DNA of 33,431 bases from contig PBFM01000014.1 of the NCBI GenBank assembly GCA_002718655.1, forward strand, positions 23,925 through 57,355. Reading direction: 5' to 3'. The position numbers and the translations under genes are program-made. Below are positions 6,624-15,580 of the stretch, piece after piece (position 1 is the stretch's first letter; the number at the start of each line of letters is the position of its first letter). The stretch comes from Fidelibacterota bacterium. GTDB taxonomy: Bacteria; Fidelibacterota; Marinisomatia; Marinisomatales; UBA1611. Below the pieces are notes generated by a model. It saw nothing but the letters and a program-made list of their open reading frames with translations. It was not told the DNA's origin and made no database searches.

Positions 6624-8069
6624 TTAATATCTATAATGGTCTGGCTTGTATGGCCCGTCTTTAGGCACTCCAATATAGTCTGCTTGCTCGTCAGTTAATT
6701 CAGTTAATTCAATACCTAGATGATCTAAGTGGAGTCTTGCCACTTCCTCATCTAATTCTTTTGGAAGCATATATACCCCTATCTCTGGTGCGTTTTGAGC
6801 TAAAGCAATTTGAGCCATAACTTGGTTAGTAAATGAATTTGACATAACAAAACTAGGATGACCAGTTGCACACCCTAAATTTACCAACCTACCTTCTGCA
6901 AGTAAGAATATTTCATGGCCATCTGGAAATTTGTATCTATGAACTTGAGGCTTTATTGTTTCTCTTTGAACAGATTTATCATCGTTTAGTGCATTGACTT
7001 GAATTTCATTATCAAAATGACCAATATTACACACTACTGCTTGATCTCTCATACCATACATATGATCTTTTGTGATAACATCTTTATTTCCAGTTGTTGT
7101 TACAAAAATATGCCCTTCATCAATAACATTCTCAACCGTTGTTACCTCAAAACCTTCCATAGCAGCCTGCAATGCGCATATTGGGTCAATTTCCGTTACG
7201 ATTACCCTTGCTCCATAACCACGCATTGATTGTGCACATCCTCTGCCAACATCACCATATCCACAAATAATAACAGTCTTACCAGCAACCATCACATCAA
7301 GAGCCCTTTTTAGACCATCTGCTAGAGATTCACGACATCCATAAACATTATCAAACTTTGATTTTGTTACAGAATCATTAACATTATATGCTGGAAATAA
7401 TAAATGTCCATCTTTTTCCATTTGAACAAGCCTATGTACACCAGTCGTAGTTTCCTCTGAGACACCAATAATATTCTCTTGCAATTTATGCCAATGATTC
7501 GAATCTTTTTTAAGTACTTCTCTTAAAAGATTTTCTATTATGACTTCTTCTTCAATTTCAGTTTTAATTTCTGGAGCTTTTCTGTATTTCGCATAATATT
7601 CTTCTAATTCATATCCCTTGTGAATAAGCAGAGTTGCATCACCACCATCATCAACAATTAGGTCAGGTCCAGAACCATCTGGATAAGTTAGAGCTTGAAG
7701 GGTACACCACCAGTATTCTTCAAGTGTTTCACCTTTCCAAGCATAGACTGGGATACCAGCTTCAGCAATTACAGCTGCTGCATGATCTTGTGTAGAAAAA
7801 ATATTACAACTTGCCCATCTTACGTTAGCACCAAGTTCAACAAGTGTTTCTATAAGTACTGCAGTTTCAACAGTCATATGTAATGATCCAGTCAACTTTT
7901 TTCCTGCAAGTGGTTTTTCAGGACCATATTTTTTTCTTGTTGACATTAGACCAGGCATTTCTTTTTCAGCGATATCTAAGGCTTTTCTTCCATCTCTTGC
8001 TAGTGATAGGTCTTTTATCTTGTGCGGTAAATTTTCTACAATAGATCGAGTTGTTAATGTATCTGACAT
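6624..8069 (-). CDS. ahcY: Adenosylhomocysteinase (S-adenosylhomocysteine hydrolase)
   Basis: The enzyme hydrolyses S-adenosylhomocysteine to homocysteine and adenosine in the cytoplasm, removing the inhibitory by-product of methylation and feeding homocysteine back to MetH. The protein is 481 residues from the chosen start. Visible marks are GSLHMT (catalytic His64), DDGGD (140-144), EETTTGV, the SVTKSKFDN active-site segment (232-240), the NAD-binding GYGDVGRG (270-277), HFDNE (351-355) and the family C-terminus YKPDHYRY. It carries the roughly 40-residue insert near 150-195 found in many bacterial and plant forms. An in-frame ATG at 8123 would overlap metK by 46 bases. I chose 8069 because AGGA lies six bases upstream and the N-terminus then fits the family. 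It is the last gene of the metH operon; no terminator is evident. Confidence 0.97.
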
Positions 8070-8080
8070 TTCTTTTCCTA
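8070..8080 (-). promoter_or_regulatory. Ribosome binding site of ahcY, overlapping the metK stop codon
   Basis: Read on the minus strand, AGGA (8079-8076) sits six bases before the ATG at 8069 and shares bases with the metK stop TAG (8080-8078). This decides the start against the longer in-frame ATG at 8123 and suggests translational coupling of ahcY to metK. Confidence 0.7.
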
Positions 8081-9253
8081 TGATTTGTTTAAAAGGGTAT
8101 CGACCATATCGGTCTTTTCCCATGTGAATTGATCAAGCTCACGCCCAAAATGGCCATAAGCAGCAGTTTCTCTATAGCGCGGTTTCTTTAAATCTAAATG
8201 TGCAACTATTTCCCCAGGTCTGATAGGGAATACATCTCTAGCAAGCCTTGTTAGATCGTTGTCTGCTTTCTTTCCTGTTCCACCAGTTTTAACATAGAAA
8301 GATGTAGGCTCAGCAACCCCAATACCGTATGACAATTGAACCTCACAACGTTCTGCAAGGCCAGATGCAACTATGTTTTTTGCAATATATCTAGCCATAT
8401 AGGTTGCACTGCGATCAACTTTTGAAGAATCTTTACCTGAAAAAGCTCCACCACCATGAGGTGCATATCCACCATAGGTATCTACAATAATTTTTCTCCC
8501 AGTTAGACCTGTATCTGCCTCAGGACCTCCGTAAACGAACCTACCGGTTCCATTAACGATAAAATTATTTTCATATGCATATCCATAAGAATCAAGTACT
8601 GGTCTTATTACATTTTCAACTATTTCAGTTTTTACAAATTCCAACTCACTTCTTTCATTTCCATATTTGTCAAGCATATCATCATGCTGAGTTGCAATGA
8701 CTGTCTTTTCAATTGATATGGGTTTTGTATTATCATACTTTACTGATACTTGAGACTTACCATCAGGCCTAAGCCAAGTAAGAAAACCCTCCTTACGCAA
8801 CTTAGTTAAACGTTCTGTTAATCTGTGTGCTATTTGAATTGGAAGAGGCATTAACTCCGGTGTTTCTTTGCAAGCAAAACCAAACATTAATCCTTGATCT
8901 CCTGCACCCTGTTCAGATAAGTCATTAGCGTCAACTCCCTGAGCTATTTCTGGGCTCTGTTCATGAAGCTTGGACAGAACTTCTACCTCTTCAGGGTCGA
9001 TCCCACTGTTTGTTTTGTTATATCCAATTGCGCGGATAGCGTCTTTTACTATCTTATCTACATTAATAGATGCAGTAGTTCTAATTTCTCCAGATATGAC
9101 CACAAGACCTTTAGTAGCTAGCGATTCGCATGCTACATGAGCGTCATTATCTTTTGATAGAATATCATCTAAAACAGCATCGGAAAAAGCATCACAAGCT
9201 TTGTCAGGATGCCCCTCAGTTACAGATTCTGATGTAAATAAAAACTTGCTCAT
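8078..9253 (-). CDS. metK: S-adenosylmethionine synthetase
   Basis: The enzyme makes S-adenosylmethionine from methionine and ATP in the cytoplasm. The 391-residue length is typical. Visible marks are EGHPDK with His15 near the N-terminus, the ATP-binding GAGDQG (116-121), the glycine-rich GGGAFSGKD loop (267-275) followed by KVDRS, and the family C-terminus with YGHFGR. The Shine-Dalgarno sequence AGGG lies eight bases before the ATG. It lies 60 bases after metF and eight bases before ahcY on the same strand. As third gene of the metH operon it would be under the SAM-II leader at 13819-13914, so its own product would feed back on its expression. Confidence 0.98.
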
Positions 9254-9302
9254 GGAATTCCCTTTTATTTTGGCAAAATAATATGATTTTAAAGGAGCAA
9301 AA

Positions 9303-9325
9303 TATACATTCGTTTATAATGTATA
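9303..9325 (-). repeat. AT-rich inverted repeat across the metF stop codon
   Basis: TATACATT and AATGTATA form an eight-pair stem with a seven-base loop at the end of metF and the start of the metF-metK gap. It is not followed by a clean U-tract, so a terminator is unlikely. It could be a processing or stability element, or chance in AT-rich DNA. Confidence 0.3.
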
Positions 9326-10264
9326 GTTTTGTGTTTTTATGCAAAATTCTCTATAAATGCGAGCTAATTCCTGTAACATTTCTACAGAGGATTGAAAATT
9401 ATAAGACATTATATGCTCAACATTTAAACCAACCGGAACCTTTAGATTATTTTTTTCAATATTACTTAAAATCTCATTTAAAACTTCAATCGCAACATCA
9501 AGCGAACGTTCTTTCATCGATCCAGGCCTACCTTGTAAATATCTTTCTGTATTATCTGGTATCTCAACACCGAGCCATTTGAGAAATTCAATATTTTTTT
9601 GGGATGATACTGGAGCAAAACTTAATAATATTCTTCTTGGAAATGTATTGAGCTCATGGCATCTTTTTTGATAGTTATTTATCATTTTTATTGCATTTTC
9701 AGAATCATATAGAACTTGAGTTGTAAAGAATTCAGAACCATGCTGACTTTTCTGAATTAAATTTTTTGATTCTTCTTTTCTACTCGGTATAGAAATCCCG
9801 CCACAAAATATATCCCCAACTTTTTTATTATAAATGTTAGATATGGCATTTAAAGCTTCATTTACTGTAGGTCCAGAGTACTTTACACTGCTTGATTCTC
9901 CTCCTACTATTATCATATTCTCAATCTCAAAATCTTTATTTGTCTCTTCCAGCCATCTCATTTGCGTATCATAATCATCATAAACAACCACTCGGTTTAT
10001 AATTGCCTCAATCCCAACAATATCTTGCAAGAGTCTACCGAACTCCCTAGGCTCTCCTCTTTTTTGATTAACAATAGGCCGATCTCCCCTACCGACCTCA
10101 TCGTGCACTTCTGGTATATTTATCGCATCAATGTGAGTTTGGGATAGCAATGAACTTATTGTTTCAGCATACGAATTCAACGTTCCATCTTTTTCCCTTG
10201 GTGGTAGAATCTCATATGCGACTACAGGACGATGTGGTTTTTTAATCTTGTCTCTAATTCTCAT
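9314..10264 (-). CDS. metF: Methylenetetrahydrofolate reductase family protein (divergent)
   Basis: This enzyme family reduces 5,10-methylene- to 5,10... 5-methyltetrahydrofolate, the methyl donor used by MetH. The protein is 316 residues, a little longer than E. coli MetF. It is divergent but recognisable. It has YEILPP (17-22) in place of the usual FEFFPP, with the glutamate kept at 18, and FFTTQVLYD (179-187) in place of the ITQFFFD strand, with Gln183 kept. It also has a C-terminal VGLNVEHIMSYN segment. The usual LRGD loop is replaced by VGGES (120-124). The ATG shares one base with the metH stop (TAATG), and GAGAG lies just upstream, so translation is probably coupled. Folate methyl supply next to metH fits the function. 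The gene symbol rests on family and context. Confidence 0.8.
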   Translation of the reverse strand: MRIRDKIKKPHRPVVAYEILPPREKDGTLNSYAETISSLLSQTHIDAINIPEVHDEVGRGDRPIVNQKRGEPREFGRLLQDIVGIEAIINRVVVYDDYDTQMRWLEETNKDFEIENMIIVGGESSSVKYSGPTVNEALNAISNIYNKKVGDIFCGGISIPSRKEESKNLIQKSQHGSEFFTTQVLYDSENAIKMINNYQKRCHELNTFPRRILLSFAPVSSQKNIEFLKWLGVEIPDNTERYLQGRPGSMKERSLDVAIEVLNEILSNIEKNNLKVPVGLNVEHIMSYNFQSSVEMLQELARIYREFCIKTQNYTL

Positions 10265-13200
10265 TATAATCTCTCGTTTTTAAGCACACTAAAGTATCGT
10301 GCTTTTGGATGGGAAAAGTACCAACCACATACAGATGCAGCGGGAAACATTGCTCTAGATTCCGTTAAGCTGATACCTATCTCCTGTTCAACATTTAGTA
10401 ATTCCCAAATTTTATCTTTTTCTTTGTGATTTGGGCAAGCTGGATAACCAGGAGCAGGTCTAATTCCACAATACTTTTCATAAAGCATCGCATTCAAGTC
10501 TAAATCTTCATCTTTTGAATAGCCCCAATATTCTCTTCTTACCTTTTTATGTAACCATTCAGCGGCTGCCTCAGCTAAACGATCAGCCAAGACCTTTGCC
10601 ATAATTTCATTATAATCATCATTTTTTACTTGGTATTCTTCGATGATATTTTCAATCCCATATCCAGCTGACACAGCAAATAATCCAATGTAGTCATCTC
10701 CAGCCGGTGATATGTAATCTGCCAAACTGAAGTTTGGTTGGTTTCCTTTATCCATTAATTGCCTTGGAAAATGAAAAGAAATCTTATTGTCAATTAATTC
10801 AACCTCTTCATCATTTGATCGAGCTTTGAAGAAACCGTAAACTGCCTTAGCCTTGAGTTTATCATCTTTAATAATCAAATGCAGTAATTGCTGCGCATCA
10901 TCAAAGACTTTTTTTGCTTCAACGCCTTTAGTTGGATGTTCAAATATCTTTGGGTAAACACCTGATAATTCCCAAGCATGAAATAATGGAGACCAATCGA
11001 TATATTTTGATAAGGTATTAAGGCAGATTTCTTCTCTTTTAAAAGAACCTAATTCTTGCGGAACGATAGGATTATATTTAAGCAATGGCTTTCTTAACCT
11101 TGCATCCTCAATCGATATAAGGTTTATGTTTTTTTGATTTTCATAAAAAGATTCTTTAATAGAACTATACCTGTCTTTAGTCTCCTCTATCAATTCAATT
11201 TTTTCACTCGGTTTTAGCAGCTTAGCCACAAAACCAACACAACGACTAGCATCTTGAACATAGAAAACGCCCTGAGGATATTTTTCTTCAATTTTAACGG
11301 CAGTGTGTTTCACACTGGTTGTAGCACCTCCAATAAGAAGCGGTATGTCAAAATTAAGGCGTTTCATTTCTGAAGCTACGTGTACCATCTCTTCTAAACT
11401 TGGAGTTATTAATCCAGATAGCCCAATAATGTCAGCGCCAACTTCTTTTGCCTTTGATAGAATTTTTTCTGCTGGAACCATCACTCCCATATCAACAATC
11501 GAGTATCCATTGCATCCTAAGACCACCCCAACAATATTTTTACCAATATCATGGACATCACCTTTCACCGTGGCCAATAGTATGGTACCATTAGAAATGT
11601 CCCCAACACCTTTATCTTGTTTTTCTTTCTCAATAAAGGGAATTAGATATGCTACTGCCTTCTTCATGACTCTTGCAGATTTAACTACCTGCGGGAGAAA
11701 CATCTTACCCTCTCCAAATAGATCTCCTACTCGGTTCATTCCATCCATGAGAGGCCCTTCAATAACTCCTATGGGGTTGTCGAACTCAGATCTTGCAACT
11801 TCAGTATCTTCTTCAATAAATTTGTCGAGTCCTTCAATTAAAGAATAAGATAACCTTTCTTTTATTGGCAGACTTCTCCATTCGTCATTACTCTTTTTCT
11901 CTTTTTTTGTGCCACGGTATTTTTCCGCAAGCGCTACTAAATTATCAGTCGCAGTTTCACTACGATTAAACAGAACATCCTCAATGGCATCTCTGAGTTC
12001 AATGTCTATGTCATCATAAATCGTTAATTGTCCGGGGTTGACAATACCCATATCCATACCACTGGTGGTGGCATGATATAAAAAACATGAATGCATTGCC
12101 TCTCGGACAGTGTCATTACCACGAAAAGAAAAAGAGAGATTACTAACTCCACCACTGACATGTACTTTTGGCATTAATTCTCTTATTTTCTTGGCTGAAT
12201 CAATATATGCTTTCCCATACTGATTGTGCTCTTCAATACCAGTTGCAACTGCAAAGATATTTGGATCAAAAATAATGTCTTCCTCCCTCATCATCACTGT
12301 ACCAGTAAGAATATGGAAGGCGCGTTGGCATATTTCAACTTTTCTTTCAAAAGTATCTGCTTGGCCATTTTCATCAAAGGCCATGACGATGACCGCAGCA
12401 CCATATTGATTTACCAATTGAGCCTGTCTTATAAACTCATCCTCTCCTTCTTTGAGAGAAATGGAATTTACAATACCTTTGCCTTGGATATTCTTAAGAC
12501 CTGATTCAATGACACTCCATTTACTAGAATCAATCATTATGGGAACTTTACTAATATCCGGTTCAGATGAAATTAGCCTGAGGTAACGAATCATAGCATT
12601 TTCACTATCTATAAGTCCTTCATCCAAATTAATATCAATAATCTGTGCTCCATTTTCGACCTGATCTCTTGCTACTGATAATGCTTCTTCAAACTTGTCT
12701 TCCTTTATAAGTTTTTTAAACCGCAAGGAGCCCGTGACGTTCGTTCTTTCTCCAACATTAATGAAATTAGATTCTGGACGTATGACTAATGGCTCCAGCC
12801 CGCTCAATTTTGTATATGCCTCTACATTTGGAATTTTACGAGGCTTTTTACCATTTACATCATTTGCAAATGCATTTATATGATCTGGCGTGGTGCCACA
12901 ACACCCACCAATTATATTTACTAAACCTGAGTCAGTGAATTCTGAAAGTTGCTGTGACATGTCTTCTGGTGATTCATCATAACCACCAAACTCATTAGGT
13001 AAACCCGCATTAGGATATACAATTATATTGGTGTTAGCTATTTTAGACAGCGATGCTATGTAGGGTCTTATTTCCTCTGCGCCTAGTGCACAGTTGAGAC
13101 CAACAGCTAATAAATCTACATGAAATATTGAATGCCAAAAAGCTTCAACAGTTTGACCAGATAATAATCTCCCACTGGCATCTGTTATAGTTCCTGAAAC

Positions 13201-13818
13201 AATTACTGGAATTTCTTTACCAACTTCTTTGAAAAGTGACTGTATTGCAAACAATGCTGCTTTACAATTTAAAGTATCGAAAACCGTCTCAATCATTAAA
13301 ATATCTACTCCACCATCAAACAAACCTTTTGCCTGATCCTCGTAGGCATCTACCAATTGATCAAAATCAACATTCCTATGACCAGGGTTTGATACGTCAG
13401 GGCTCATAGAAGCAGTTTGGTTGGTTGGGCCAATCGCACCACAAACAAATCTAGGCTTATTTGGGTTAGATTTCGTAATACGATCGCATACATCTCTTGC
13501 AATTTTTGCAGATTCCAGGTTTAGGTCATATGCCAGATGCTCCAATTGATAATCTGACTGCGATATTGAATTTGCATTAAAAGTATTTGTCTCTATCAGA
13601 TCAGCTCCAGCTTTTAAATAGGATTCATGTATTTCTGAAATAATATCTGGCCTAGTGATTGAAAGAATATCATTATTACCCATTAGGTCCATCGTATGGT
13701 CGTTGAACTGAGAACCTCGAAAATCATTTTCTTTCAACCCATATCCTTGAATCATAGTACCCATGGCACCGTCAAGTACGAGAACTCTTTCTTTTAATAT
13801 ATCTTTAATTTTTTGCAT
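10264..13818 (-). CDS. metH: Cobalamin-dependent methionine synthase, full length
   Basis: MetH transfers a methyl group from 5-methyltetrahydrofolate through cobalamin to homocysteine, giving methionine. All four modules are present in 1184 residues. The homocysteine domain starts at LDGAMGT (15-21) and has zinc ligands Cys243, Cys306 and Cys307. The pterin domain follows from INVGERTN (353-360). The cobalamin domain has DVHDIG with the ligand His756. The C-terminal activation domain has the SAM-binding [10 protein letters not shown] (1120-1129). Reductive reactivation is therefore likely, and the cell needs B12. It is first in an operon with metF, metK and ahcY. The ATG follows directly on the U-tract of a terminator-like hairpin downstream of a SAM-II aptamer. 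There is no Shine-Dalgarno sequence next to this start. Confidence 0.98.
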
Positions 13819-13842
13819 AAAAAAACCGGCGCAAAGTCCGGT
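13819..13842 (-). terminator. Terminator-like hairpin of the metH riboswitch leader
   Basis: On the minus strand, ACCGG (13842-13838) pairs with CCGGT (13829-13825) around an eight-base loop. A run of seven Ts (13825-13819) follows and ends right at the metH ATG. This has the form of an intrinsic terminator, though the stem is short. Its place between the aptamer and the start codon suggests transcription attenuation of the methyl-cycle operon. Confidence 0.65.
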
Positions 13843-13857
13843 ATTAAGGTCACTTTA

Positions 13858-13914
13858 ATTCCTTTTTAGCGCTTTTATTTTTTGTCGCGGCAATATGGTG
13901 CAAATCACGACCTA
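13858..13914 (-). ncRNA. SAM-II (metA-type) riboswitch aptamer upstream of metH
   Basis: The minus-strand leader shows the SAM-II pseudoknot plan. Stem P1 is GTCGTG (13911-13906) with CGCGAC (13889-13884). Loop L1 carries the conserved GATTTG, then ACC and TTGC. An A-rich L3 follows, then the conserved 3' strand GCTAAAAAGG (13870-13861), which folds back on L1. GATTTG, ACC..TTGC and GCTAAA are the positions I know as invariant in this class, which binds S-adenosylmethionine. The 3' segment is nearly identical to that of the crystallised marine metX example as I recall it. The single A usually found between TTGC and the 3' side of P1 is missing. The gene downstream, metH, and its operon fit a SAM-repressed regulon. 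SAM-V shares part of the core and is the main alternative. Confidence 0.85.
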
Positions 13915-13916
13915 CT

Positions 13917-13929
13917 TGAAAATATTAAA
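13917..13929 (-). promoter_or_regulatory. Possible -10 element for the metH leader
   Basis: TTTAAT (13929-13924 on the minus strand) matches five of six bases of TATAAT and would place transcription start near 13917, just before P1 of the aptamer. No good -35 element is seen at the normal spacing, so this is weak. Confidence 0.25.
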
Positions 13930-13963
13930 GAATCACGATATATCCAAAGCTAAAGTTCAATCA

Positions 13964-15580
13964 TTATAATTTAGGACCTGCTTCGAGTATATCATTATCT
14001 CCAAGATCATATTTTTTATAATTATCCTGAAATTTTTTAACCAATTTTTTTGCAGATGTGTGATAATCATTTAGATTATCCCAGGCTCGTAATGGATTCA
14101 AAAGTCTGGAATCTATATCACCCAAGGAAACTGGAATCTGAAAACCAAAATAATGATCTTTTTCAAAATCTGTTTGTTCAATTTCTCCATTAAGAATTAA
14201 ATCTAGAATTTGTCTAGTTTTCGGTAGACTAAATCTCTTGCCTCCAGAACGAGCATCAGCTCCTACCCAACCAGTATTAACTAGGTAAACAGCAACATCA
14301 AATGTTTCCATTTTTTCTTTTAATAACTCTGCATATTTAATAGGGTGCAATGTTAAGAATGGACCCCCAAAACAAGGGGAAAAGGTAGCAGTGGGTTCAG
14401 TAATACCTCTTTCTGTTCCAGCTACCTTTGCTGTATATCCACTGACAAAATGATACATAGCCTGTTGTGTTGTTAATTTAGCGACAGGAGGTAAAATCCC
14501 ATAAGCATCACAAGTGAGAAAAATTATTGTATTTGGATGTCCTGCAATACTTGGCATTCCCTTTCCTGATATTGAGTTATTTATATGGTGTAGTGGATAT
14601 GAAACTCTAGTATTTTCTGTTTTTGTTCCATCACTAAAATCAATTTCTAAAGTGTCTTTATCATAAACAACATTTTCTAAAAGGGCACCCTGTCTTATAG
14701 CATTGTAAATATCTGGCTCTTCATCTTTGTTGAGGTTTATGACCTTAGCATAACATCCGCCTTCAAAGTTGAAAATACCATCACCAGACCATCCGTGCTC
14801 ATCATCTCCAATAAGAGGTCTATTGGAATCTGTACTTAAAGTGGTCTTACCAGTTCCAGAAAGTCCAAAGAATATTGCAGGGTTACTATTGTCTTTACTA
14901 ATGTTAGCAGAACAATGCATTGATAAGATTCCCTTTTTGGGGAGTATGTAATGCAATACCGAAAAAATTCCCTTTTTCATTTCTCCACCGTATTCAGTAC
15001 CTCCGATAATTGCAATTCTCTTGGCGAGATGAAATATTATGAAAGTTTCAGAATTCATACCTAGATCTTGATAATCTGTGTTTTTCACATCTGAAGCATT
15101 AATTATGGTAAAACCTGGCCTGAAGCCAGTAAGATCTTCCTGCTTCGGACGAATGAACATATTATTAACAAAATGCGCTTGCCAAGCCTTCTTCGCGATA
15201 ATGCGAACATTAAGAGTGTGCTTTTTATCTGCACCGGCATATCCATCAAAAACATAAGTTTTATCACTAATTTGTGAATTATAAAAATGTATTACCTTTG
15301 AGTATAATTTATTAAATACTTTCTCACTTATCTTTTGGTTAACATCACCCCACCATATATCATTTGAAGAGGATGATTCTTCTACTATATACTTATCCTT
15401 TGGAGATCTACCTGTATAAATACCAGTGTCTACCATAGCTGCACCTTTCATTCCAATTAAGCCTTCACCATTATCAACAATATCCTTAACCAGTGCCTTT
15501 ACGGGTAAATTCCTATGCACATTCTCTAAATTAATTATACCAAGTTTATCTAAACCTAATTCATTACTATTTAATTTCAT
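13964..15580 (-). CDS. pckA: Phosphoenolpyruvate carboxykinase (ATP)
   Basis: The enzyme converts oxaloacetate and ATP to phosphoenolpyruvate, CO2 and ADP, the entry step of gluconeogenesis. The 538-residue length is typical of the ATP-dependent class. Visible marks are TGRSPKDK (56-63) with the substrate-binding arginine, GGEMKKGIFSVLHY (198-211) with metal-ligand lysine and histidine, the P-loop GLSGTGKTTLS (239-249), and FEGGCYAK (272-279). The Shine-Dalgarno sequence AGGG lies six bases before the ATG. It follows the xer gene by 16 bases and looks like the last gene of the ileS cluster. No terminator is evident before the metH leader, so some read-through into that leader is possible. Confidence 0.97.
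   Translation of the reverse strand: MKLNSNELGLDKLGIINLENVHRNLPVKALVKDIVDNGEGLIGMKGAAMVDTGIYTGRSPKDKYIVEESSSSNDIWWGDVNQKISEKVFNKLYSKVIHFYNSQISDKTYVFDGYAGADKKHTLNVRIIAKKAWQAHFVNNMFIRPKQEDLTGFRPGFTIINASDVKNTDYQDLGMNSETFIIFHLAKRIAIIGGTEYGGEMKKGIFSVLHYILPKKGILSMHCSANISKDNSNPAIFFGLSGTGKTTLSTDSNRPLIGDDEHGWSGDGIFNFEGGCYAKVINLNKDEEPDIYNAIRQGALLENVVYDKDTLEIDFSDGTKTENTRVSYPLHHINNSISGKGMPSIAGHPNTIIFLTCDAYGILPPVAKLTTQQAMYHFVSGYTAKVAGTERGITEPTATFSPCFGGPFLTLHPIKYAELLKEKMETFDVAVYLVNTGWVGADARSGGKRFSLPKTRQILDLILNGEIEQTDFEKDHYFGFQIPVSLGDIDSRLLNPLRAWDNLNDYHTSAKKLVKKFQDNYKKYDLGDNDILEAGPKL

Follow-up and report, generated by a model that had tools for sequence, protein, structure and literature searches.

Terminator-type SAM-II switches as such are already known, and terminators after SAM-II aptamers are described in the available sections of PMC1273637, PMC2258182, and PMC9373788. 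According to the same sections, the transcriptional members, such as that of Sinorhizobium metZ, form an H-type pseudoknot with the elements AUUUG, UUGC, and GCUAAA, carry a terminator between the aptamer and the methionine gene, and are predicted to be OFF switches. Their switching mechanism was not experimentally established as of 2007 (PMC2258182, available text), and effects of SAM-II on gene expression were unstudied before 2022 (PMC9373788, available text). The proteobacterial SAM_alpha targets listed in the accessible part of PMC4239095 are metY, hom, metA, metX, metC, and metW, and metH is absent from that list. The marine class SAM-V (RF01826) has a near-identical SAM site and a P2a helix of 2 bp, acts translationally, and was reported before metH in metagenomes (PMC2704228, in the part available). 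Tandem SAM-II/SAM-V leaders also contain a terminator-type SAM-II element (PMC9481103, in the part available). In guanidine-IV, a ligand-controlled pairing engages the terminal loop of the terminator, and the ligand promotes this loop pairing and read-through (PMC10907184, available text).

The window analyzed here, the whole stretch of 33,431 nucleotides from a Fidelibacterota bacterium (contig PBFM01000014.1), contains a SAM-II-like leader with a terminator before metH. It shares the pseudoknot elements and the position of the terminator with the metZ-type members, but its P2a has 2 bp, compared to mostly 5 in theirs, and its target is metH. SAM-V has the same short P2a and SAM site but is translational, whereas the window has a terminator. 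Unlike the tandem leaders, the metH leader has a single aptamer, although other members of the phylum do have tandem forms. The guanidine-IV class offers a precedent for the design with the opposite outcome, since in the window the ligand would withdraw the strand needed for loop pairing and so stop transcription. The proposed antiterminator pairs GCUAAA with the terminator's loop and 3' arm, whereas in two alphaproteobacterial leaders (L174 and L193), assigned to the metZ type by our reading of the S. meliloti paper and the sequence, it is the G-rich P2a strand that fits the arms of the terminator, being palindromic and pairing with either arm at -12 to -14 kcal/mol. In a literature search, we recognized no report of a riboswitch in Neomarinimicrobiota or of SAM-II with metH or SAR406; supplementary figures may describe the alphaproteobacterial antiterminator. 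The new elements would be the phylum, metH as a SAM-II target, and an antiterminator directed at the loop and 3' arm instead of the 5' arm.

The minus strand from 13921 to 13845 aligned with the SAM-II model RF00521 (SAM_alpha) over its full length at 30.0 bits (E 6.1e-5, cmscan), below the gathering score of 36, and a whole-window scan at the gathering score gave no match. The orthologues from two genomes of the same genus, G111 and G112, reached 44.3 bits, above this cut-off. Membership in SAM-V was rejected, with RF01826 scoring 27.1 bits on the window element against 41 required and none of 31 genomes (the window's own and relatives) passing the cut-off. The parts of the aptamer are as follows.

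13845-13921, minus strand: SAM-II (RF00521, SAM_alpha) aptamer match (cmscan 30.0 bits; orthologues 44.3)
13906-13911, minus strand: P1 5' strand GUCGUG, pairing with 13889-13884 in the minimum-energy fold and the RF00521 alignment
13884-13889, minus strand: P1 3' strand CGCGAC (minimum-energy fold and RF00521 alignment)
13901-13905, minus strand: AUUUG, which would be the third strand of the P2 triplex (its UUUG does not vary in alignment A1; role per the available part of PMC6061858)
13890-13893, minus strand: putative P2 5' strand UUGC (invariant in A1; assignment modeled on the PMC6061858 numbering)
13865-13870, minus strand: GCUAAA, 3' core of the aptamer (invariant in A1)

The full-length model alignment and the invariant UUGC and GCUAAA strands point to the P1 hairpin and P2 pseudoknot of SAM-II. 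The nucleotides of the SAM site, with roles taken from the available part of PMC6061858, were conserved, as UUUG, AUUGC, and GCUAAA were all invariant across the 15 leaders of alignment A1. In the matching strand of SAM-V, U47 pairs with the adenine of SAM and A50 touches its amino-acid end (PMC6061858, same part). In our own mapping to these bases, U13868 would be the counterpart of the adenine-pairing base and A13865 that of the base contacting the amino-acid end, which would make the terminator loop antisense to the SAM site.

The first-pass annotation had placed a hairpin ACCGG/CCGGT with a T run ending at the metH ATG, and its coordinates proved exact to the base. The hairpin consists of ACCGG (13842-13838), the loop ACUUUGCG (13837-13830), and CCGGU (13829-13825), is followed by the T run 13825-13819 and the ATG at 13818-13816, all on the minus strand, and has the GC-rich stem and U run of an intrinsic terminator. 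It was the sole terminator-like site in 13500-14400, where shuffled sequences gave 0.4 (SD 0.7). The terminator and the genes behind it are listed below.

13825-13842, minus strand: intrinsic terminator hairpin ACCGG-ACUUUGCG-CCGGU (-6.5 kcal/mol; also in homologues)
13819-13825, minus strand: U tract ending at the metH start codon (from the sequence)
10264-13818, minus strand: metH, B12-dependent methionine synthase, the presumed regulated gene (TIGR02082, 1668.7 bits)
9314-10264, minus strand: methylenetetrahydrofolate reductase-like (metF-like) gene (matches below curated cut-offs)
8078-9253, minus strand: metK, SAM synthetase (TIGR01034, 537.6 bits)
6624-8123, minus strand: ahcY, adenosylhomocysteinase (TIGR00936, 621.1 bits)

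Since metH, the metF-like gene, metK, and ahcY lie in one run (6624-13818), the entire SAM cycle may be under a single switch. The distance from the end of GCUAAA to the ATG is 46 nt, and the description of the platform as very compact is fair but fits the whole lineage, where the median over 89 leaders is 40 nt. The 3' arm ends 6 nt before the first ATG, with a median of 7 nt across the leaders. No Shine-Dalgarno sequence was seen ahead of metH in 13819-13842, and several other genes of the window likewise lack a clear one. Within the sequence available per locus, the order of metH, the metF-like gene, metK, and ahcY was not seen in most relatives.

RF00521 matched at E ≤ 0.01 in 94 of 130 genomes of the window's order, 50 of them over the family cut-off; across the phylum, a match was present in 105 of 245 genomes. 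In the order, metH was present in 92 genomes, and in 90 of these the aptamer lay within 400 nt upstream of it, as expected of SAM-II ahead of methionine and SAM genes. Of the two exceptions, G109 has an aptamer and a terminator that were visible by eye and missed by the search, and in G121 metH is cut by the contig end. A search with the aptamer pattern yielded 38 loci in named genomes, all labeled Marinimicrobia/Neomarinimicrobiota except two labeled FCB group bacterium; metH was directly downstream in all 38, while within the sequence available per locus pckA preceded the element in 9 and metK was seen downstream in 6. Viral contigs gave no match to the aptamer pattern or to the variant pattern described below.

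Loss of the hairpin from homologues that keep the aptamer, which would have spoken against the proposed switch, was rare, as the terminator was present in 90 of 92 followable metH leaders (89 by script and G080, with a longer loop, by eye) and absent from G099. The 92 comprised the 90 with an aptamer before metH plus G113 and G046 (metH cut by contig end); non-metH variant elements were left out of this survey, and G088:C146 and G070:C50 could not be followed because their contigs end. The set of 89 leaders used below lacks G078 (unreadable, Ns), G080, and G099. UUAGC was common in the loops of relatives, where it pairs without a bulge, and inspection by eye of eight metH leaders belonging to other families of the class showed UUUAG in every loop. 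In the small genomes G020 (L004) and G036 (L035), metH is interrupted, with the aptamer and terminator remaining, and in family f9, which has many small genomes, most lack both metH and the aptamer.

The alternative pairing was proposed between GCGCUAAA (13872-13865, minus strand) and UUUGCGC (13835-13829), which covers six bases of the loop plus one of the terminator 3' arm. The part predicted to form is the following.

13869-13872, minus strand: antiterminator 5' strand GCGC (minimum-energy structure; covariation in relatives)
13829-13832, minus strand: antiterminator 3' strand GCGC, three loop bases and the first 3'-arm base (minimum-energy structure)

The GCGC/GCGC helix, at -3.4 kcal/mol, was contained in the free minimum of the full leader (-20.1 kcal/mol), and the AAA:UUU extension past the bulged U did not hold up, as its inclusion gave -2.2 kcal/mol. 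The terminator alone has -6.5 kcal/mol, and forcing it into the full leader gave -17.3, a cost of 2.8 kcal/mol. In these folds, computed without the pseudoknot, blocking the P2 and L1 strands as a stand-in for bound SAM changed the predicted minimum to P1 plus terminator. Taken alone, the window did not differ from chance, with a fold z-score of -0.41 and a longest pairing run of 4 compared to a mean of 4.7 for the shuffled loop and arm. The 4 bp of GCGC/GCGC are thus at chance level, and the support for the alternative pairing in the window is comparative.

In the 89 leaders, the aptamer 3' strand (six nucleotides, GCUAAA, and two nucleotides) was paired with the terminator from its loop through its 3' arm. 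The resulting duplexes had a mean energy of -8.75, compared to -7.30 (SD 0.17, best -7.97) with partners permuted among genomes, and none of 5,000 permutations was as good; shuffled loops gave -3.9. Permuting within families kept the signal in f1 (24 leaders) and f12 (33 leaders), with 0/5000 each, and gave none in f10, where the seven leaders are nearly identical and 5000/5000 permutations reached the observed value. When the whole aptamer was allowed, the best partner of the loop and 3' arm touched GCUAAA in 58 of 89 leaders. The register is shifted to ACAAAUGC/GCAUUUGU in G081 and G082.

The flanks of the pairing were analyzed in 78 of the 89 leaders with the register fixed on the core alone and the flank bases unused for anchoring; the window was one of the 11 leaders that could not be anchored. 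Position -1 was paired in 61/78 (T-A 39, A-T 9, T-G 8, and C-G 5; 17 unpaired) and position -2 in 68/76 (G-C 33, G-T 26, T-A 5, A-T 3, and T-G 1; 8 unpaired). Contiguous pairs at these first two flank positions numbered 114, compared to 79.8 after permutation (SD 5.6, maximum 104). The 89 leaders are related, for which the within-family permutations and a flank test with one genome per genus (32 genomes, median P 0.007) are a partial remedy. With each distinct hairpin counted once, 25 of 37 leader terminators had UUAG or UAGC in the loop and 3' arm, compared to 1 of the 79 other terminators that these contigs contain. Because this motif is enriched and the flanking bases covary, the terminator loop and 3' arm appear antisense to the strand predicted to contact SAM. 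The reading of terminator and antiterminator as mutually exclusive is supported by this covariation, with genus g7 (three genomes, G106-108), which has no UAGC loop motif, and G099, which has no terminator, as exceptions.

In 75 of 89 leaders, the pairing occupies one or more bases of the terminator 3' arm, so that the two helices cannot both be complete there. In the relatives, the finished terminator is usually the more stable one (median -10.7 compared to -5.1 for the antiterminator). In a folding series, the antiterminator was the minimum in 76 to 87 of 89 leaders as long as the RNA ended in the range from the loop to four bases into the 3' arm, and the terminator was the minimum in 54 to 61 once the 3' arm was out (61 when fully exposed). 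Since the energies favor the finished terminator, the switch would have to be kinetic, and this folding series is consistent with, and no proof of, such control.

Control of metH mainly at translation, with the pseudoknot or the hairpin hiding its start as in metX SAM-II and SAM-V, is unlikely. The 2-bp P2a (CC/GG), reported for translational members in the available part of PMC6061858, the ATG 6 nt past the terminator arm, and an AAAAAGG that resembles a ribosome site would suit it, but the terminator and U tract occur in 90 of the 92 followable leaders, AAAAAGG lies about 40 nt from the ATG, and a short reading frame starting from it is not conserved. This frame, which would begin at GTG 13853 and use AAAAAGGA as its ribosome site, was rejected because no more than 15 of 88 leaders have a start codon 4-12 nt past GG. 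Translational control could act in addition to termination.

Capture of the terminator 5' arm by the aptamer, the classical arrangement that the sequence suggests for the alphaproteobacterial metZ-type leaders, is quite improbable as the general design and was rejected, since over the 89 leaders the 5' arm showed no covariation with the aptamer (z -0.8; 1053/5000 permutations reached the observed value). Alphaproteobacterial 3' strands do reach -9 to -13 kcal/mol when paired to the 5' arm, and many leaders have an inner GGN:NCC helix, for which contiguous extension pairs over 88 of the 89 leaders numbered 96, compared to 81.8 (SD 4.8) after permutation, but this excess failed with one genome per genus (median P 0.087). 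The inner helix, in which GG of the aptamer pairs with CC of the terminator in many predicted folds, has weak covariation and is suggestive. In genus g7 (L061, L062, and L080), the partner of the 5' arm is the part of the aptamer between P2 and P1, with energies of -14 to -16 kcal/mol, and this genus has perhaps exchanged the loop-type antiterminator for a 5'-arm one.

It is very improbable that the hairpin simply terminates the upstream gene pckA, or acts as an attenuator free of regulation, and has an incidental loop match, for although it lies about 120 nt past the pckA stop and the pairing in the window has 4 bp only, the same hairpin stands before metH whatever is upstream (pckA in 9, metH in 38 of the 38 named loci), its loop motif is enriched, and its pairing covaries.

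A column profile over the 89 metH leaders showed a T-rich box at -37 to -34 from P1 and, in relatives, a conserved TAAnnTT at -12 to -6 before P1, located 4 nt further upstream in the window. The candidate promoter boxes of the window are as follows.

13945-13948, minus strand: TTTG, candidate -33 promoter box (column profile)
13920-13927, minus strand: TAATATTT, candidate -7 promoter box (column profile; TAAnnTT conserved in relatives)

From these positions, transcription would start close to P1. The two boxes are candidates for what we take to be the promoter type of Bacteroidetes relatives; a sigma-70 promoter scan found none.

A second, variant class of SAM-II-like elements was found elsewhere in the phylum, not at metH and often with two elements in tandem at about 107 nt. 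The loci were as follows.

L086 601-782, L092, L097, L098, L181, L182, L183, L188, L189, L190, L192, L206, L208: variant elements

In the tandem, the first element has a terminator and the second has GAGG/CCC in place of CC/GG, several with a GUCUCC/GGAGAC block at the ribosome site. A model of the second element (R1) matched sporadically, in 11 of 245 genomes and 7 of 84 genera. In many pairs of variant elements, identity is confined to about 100-280 nt and the cargo differs, including unknown small proteins, an AAA ATPase, and a Phd/YefM-YafQ-like pair, with a serine resolvase next door; by its sequence, the variant element looks like a mobile riboswitch module. L087 411-2177 and L190 306-2077, from genomes of different families (f12 and f16), are 99.3% identical over 1.77 kb, a stretch that includes the variant element and a toxin-antitoxin-like pair, and reflect either recent transfer or a misbinned contig.

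The metH leader of the window, which comes from a Neomarinimicrobiota bacterium, is likely a SAM-II-type riboswitch that switches OFF transcription of metH, and probably also of the metF-like gene, metK, and ahcY. Without SAM, the aptamer strand (N)GCUAAA would be free and would capture the terminator loop and the start of the 3' arm as they leave the polymerase, before the 3' arm is complete, and transcription would read through into metH. With SAM, (N)GCUAAA would be held in the P2 triplex, the terminator would fold, and transcription would stop at the U tract before the ATG. We lean toward a further reading, in which the terminator is an anti-aptamer in nearly all metH-bearing genomes of the order, SAM and terminator competing directly for the same six bases in a brief race that opens when the loop emerges and closes when the 3' arm is complete, with one genus apparently swapped to the 5'-arm form. 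The roughly 90 related leaders single out one helix that can be mutated and whose bases would themselves make up the SAM site, and a few mutants would suffice to test direct competition between ligand and terminator. For the Marinimicrobia lineage, the switch adds a likely SAM feedback on B12-dependent methionine synthesis.
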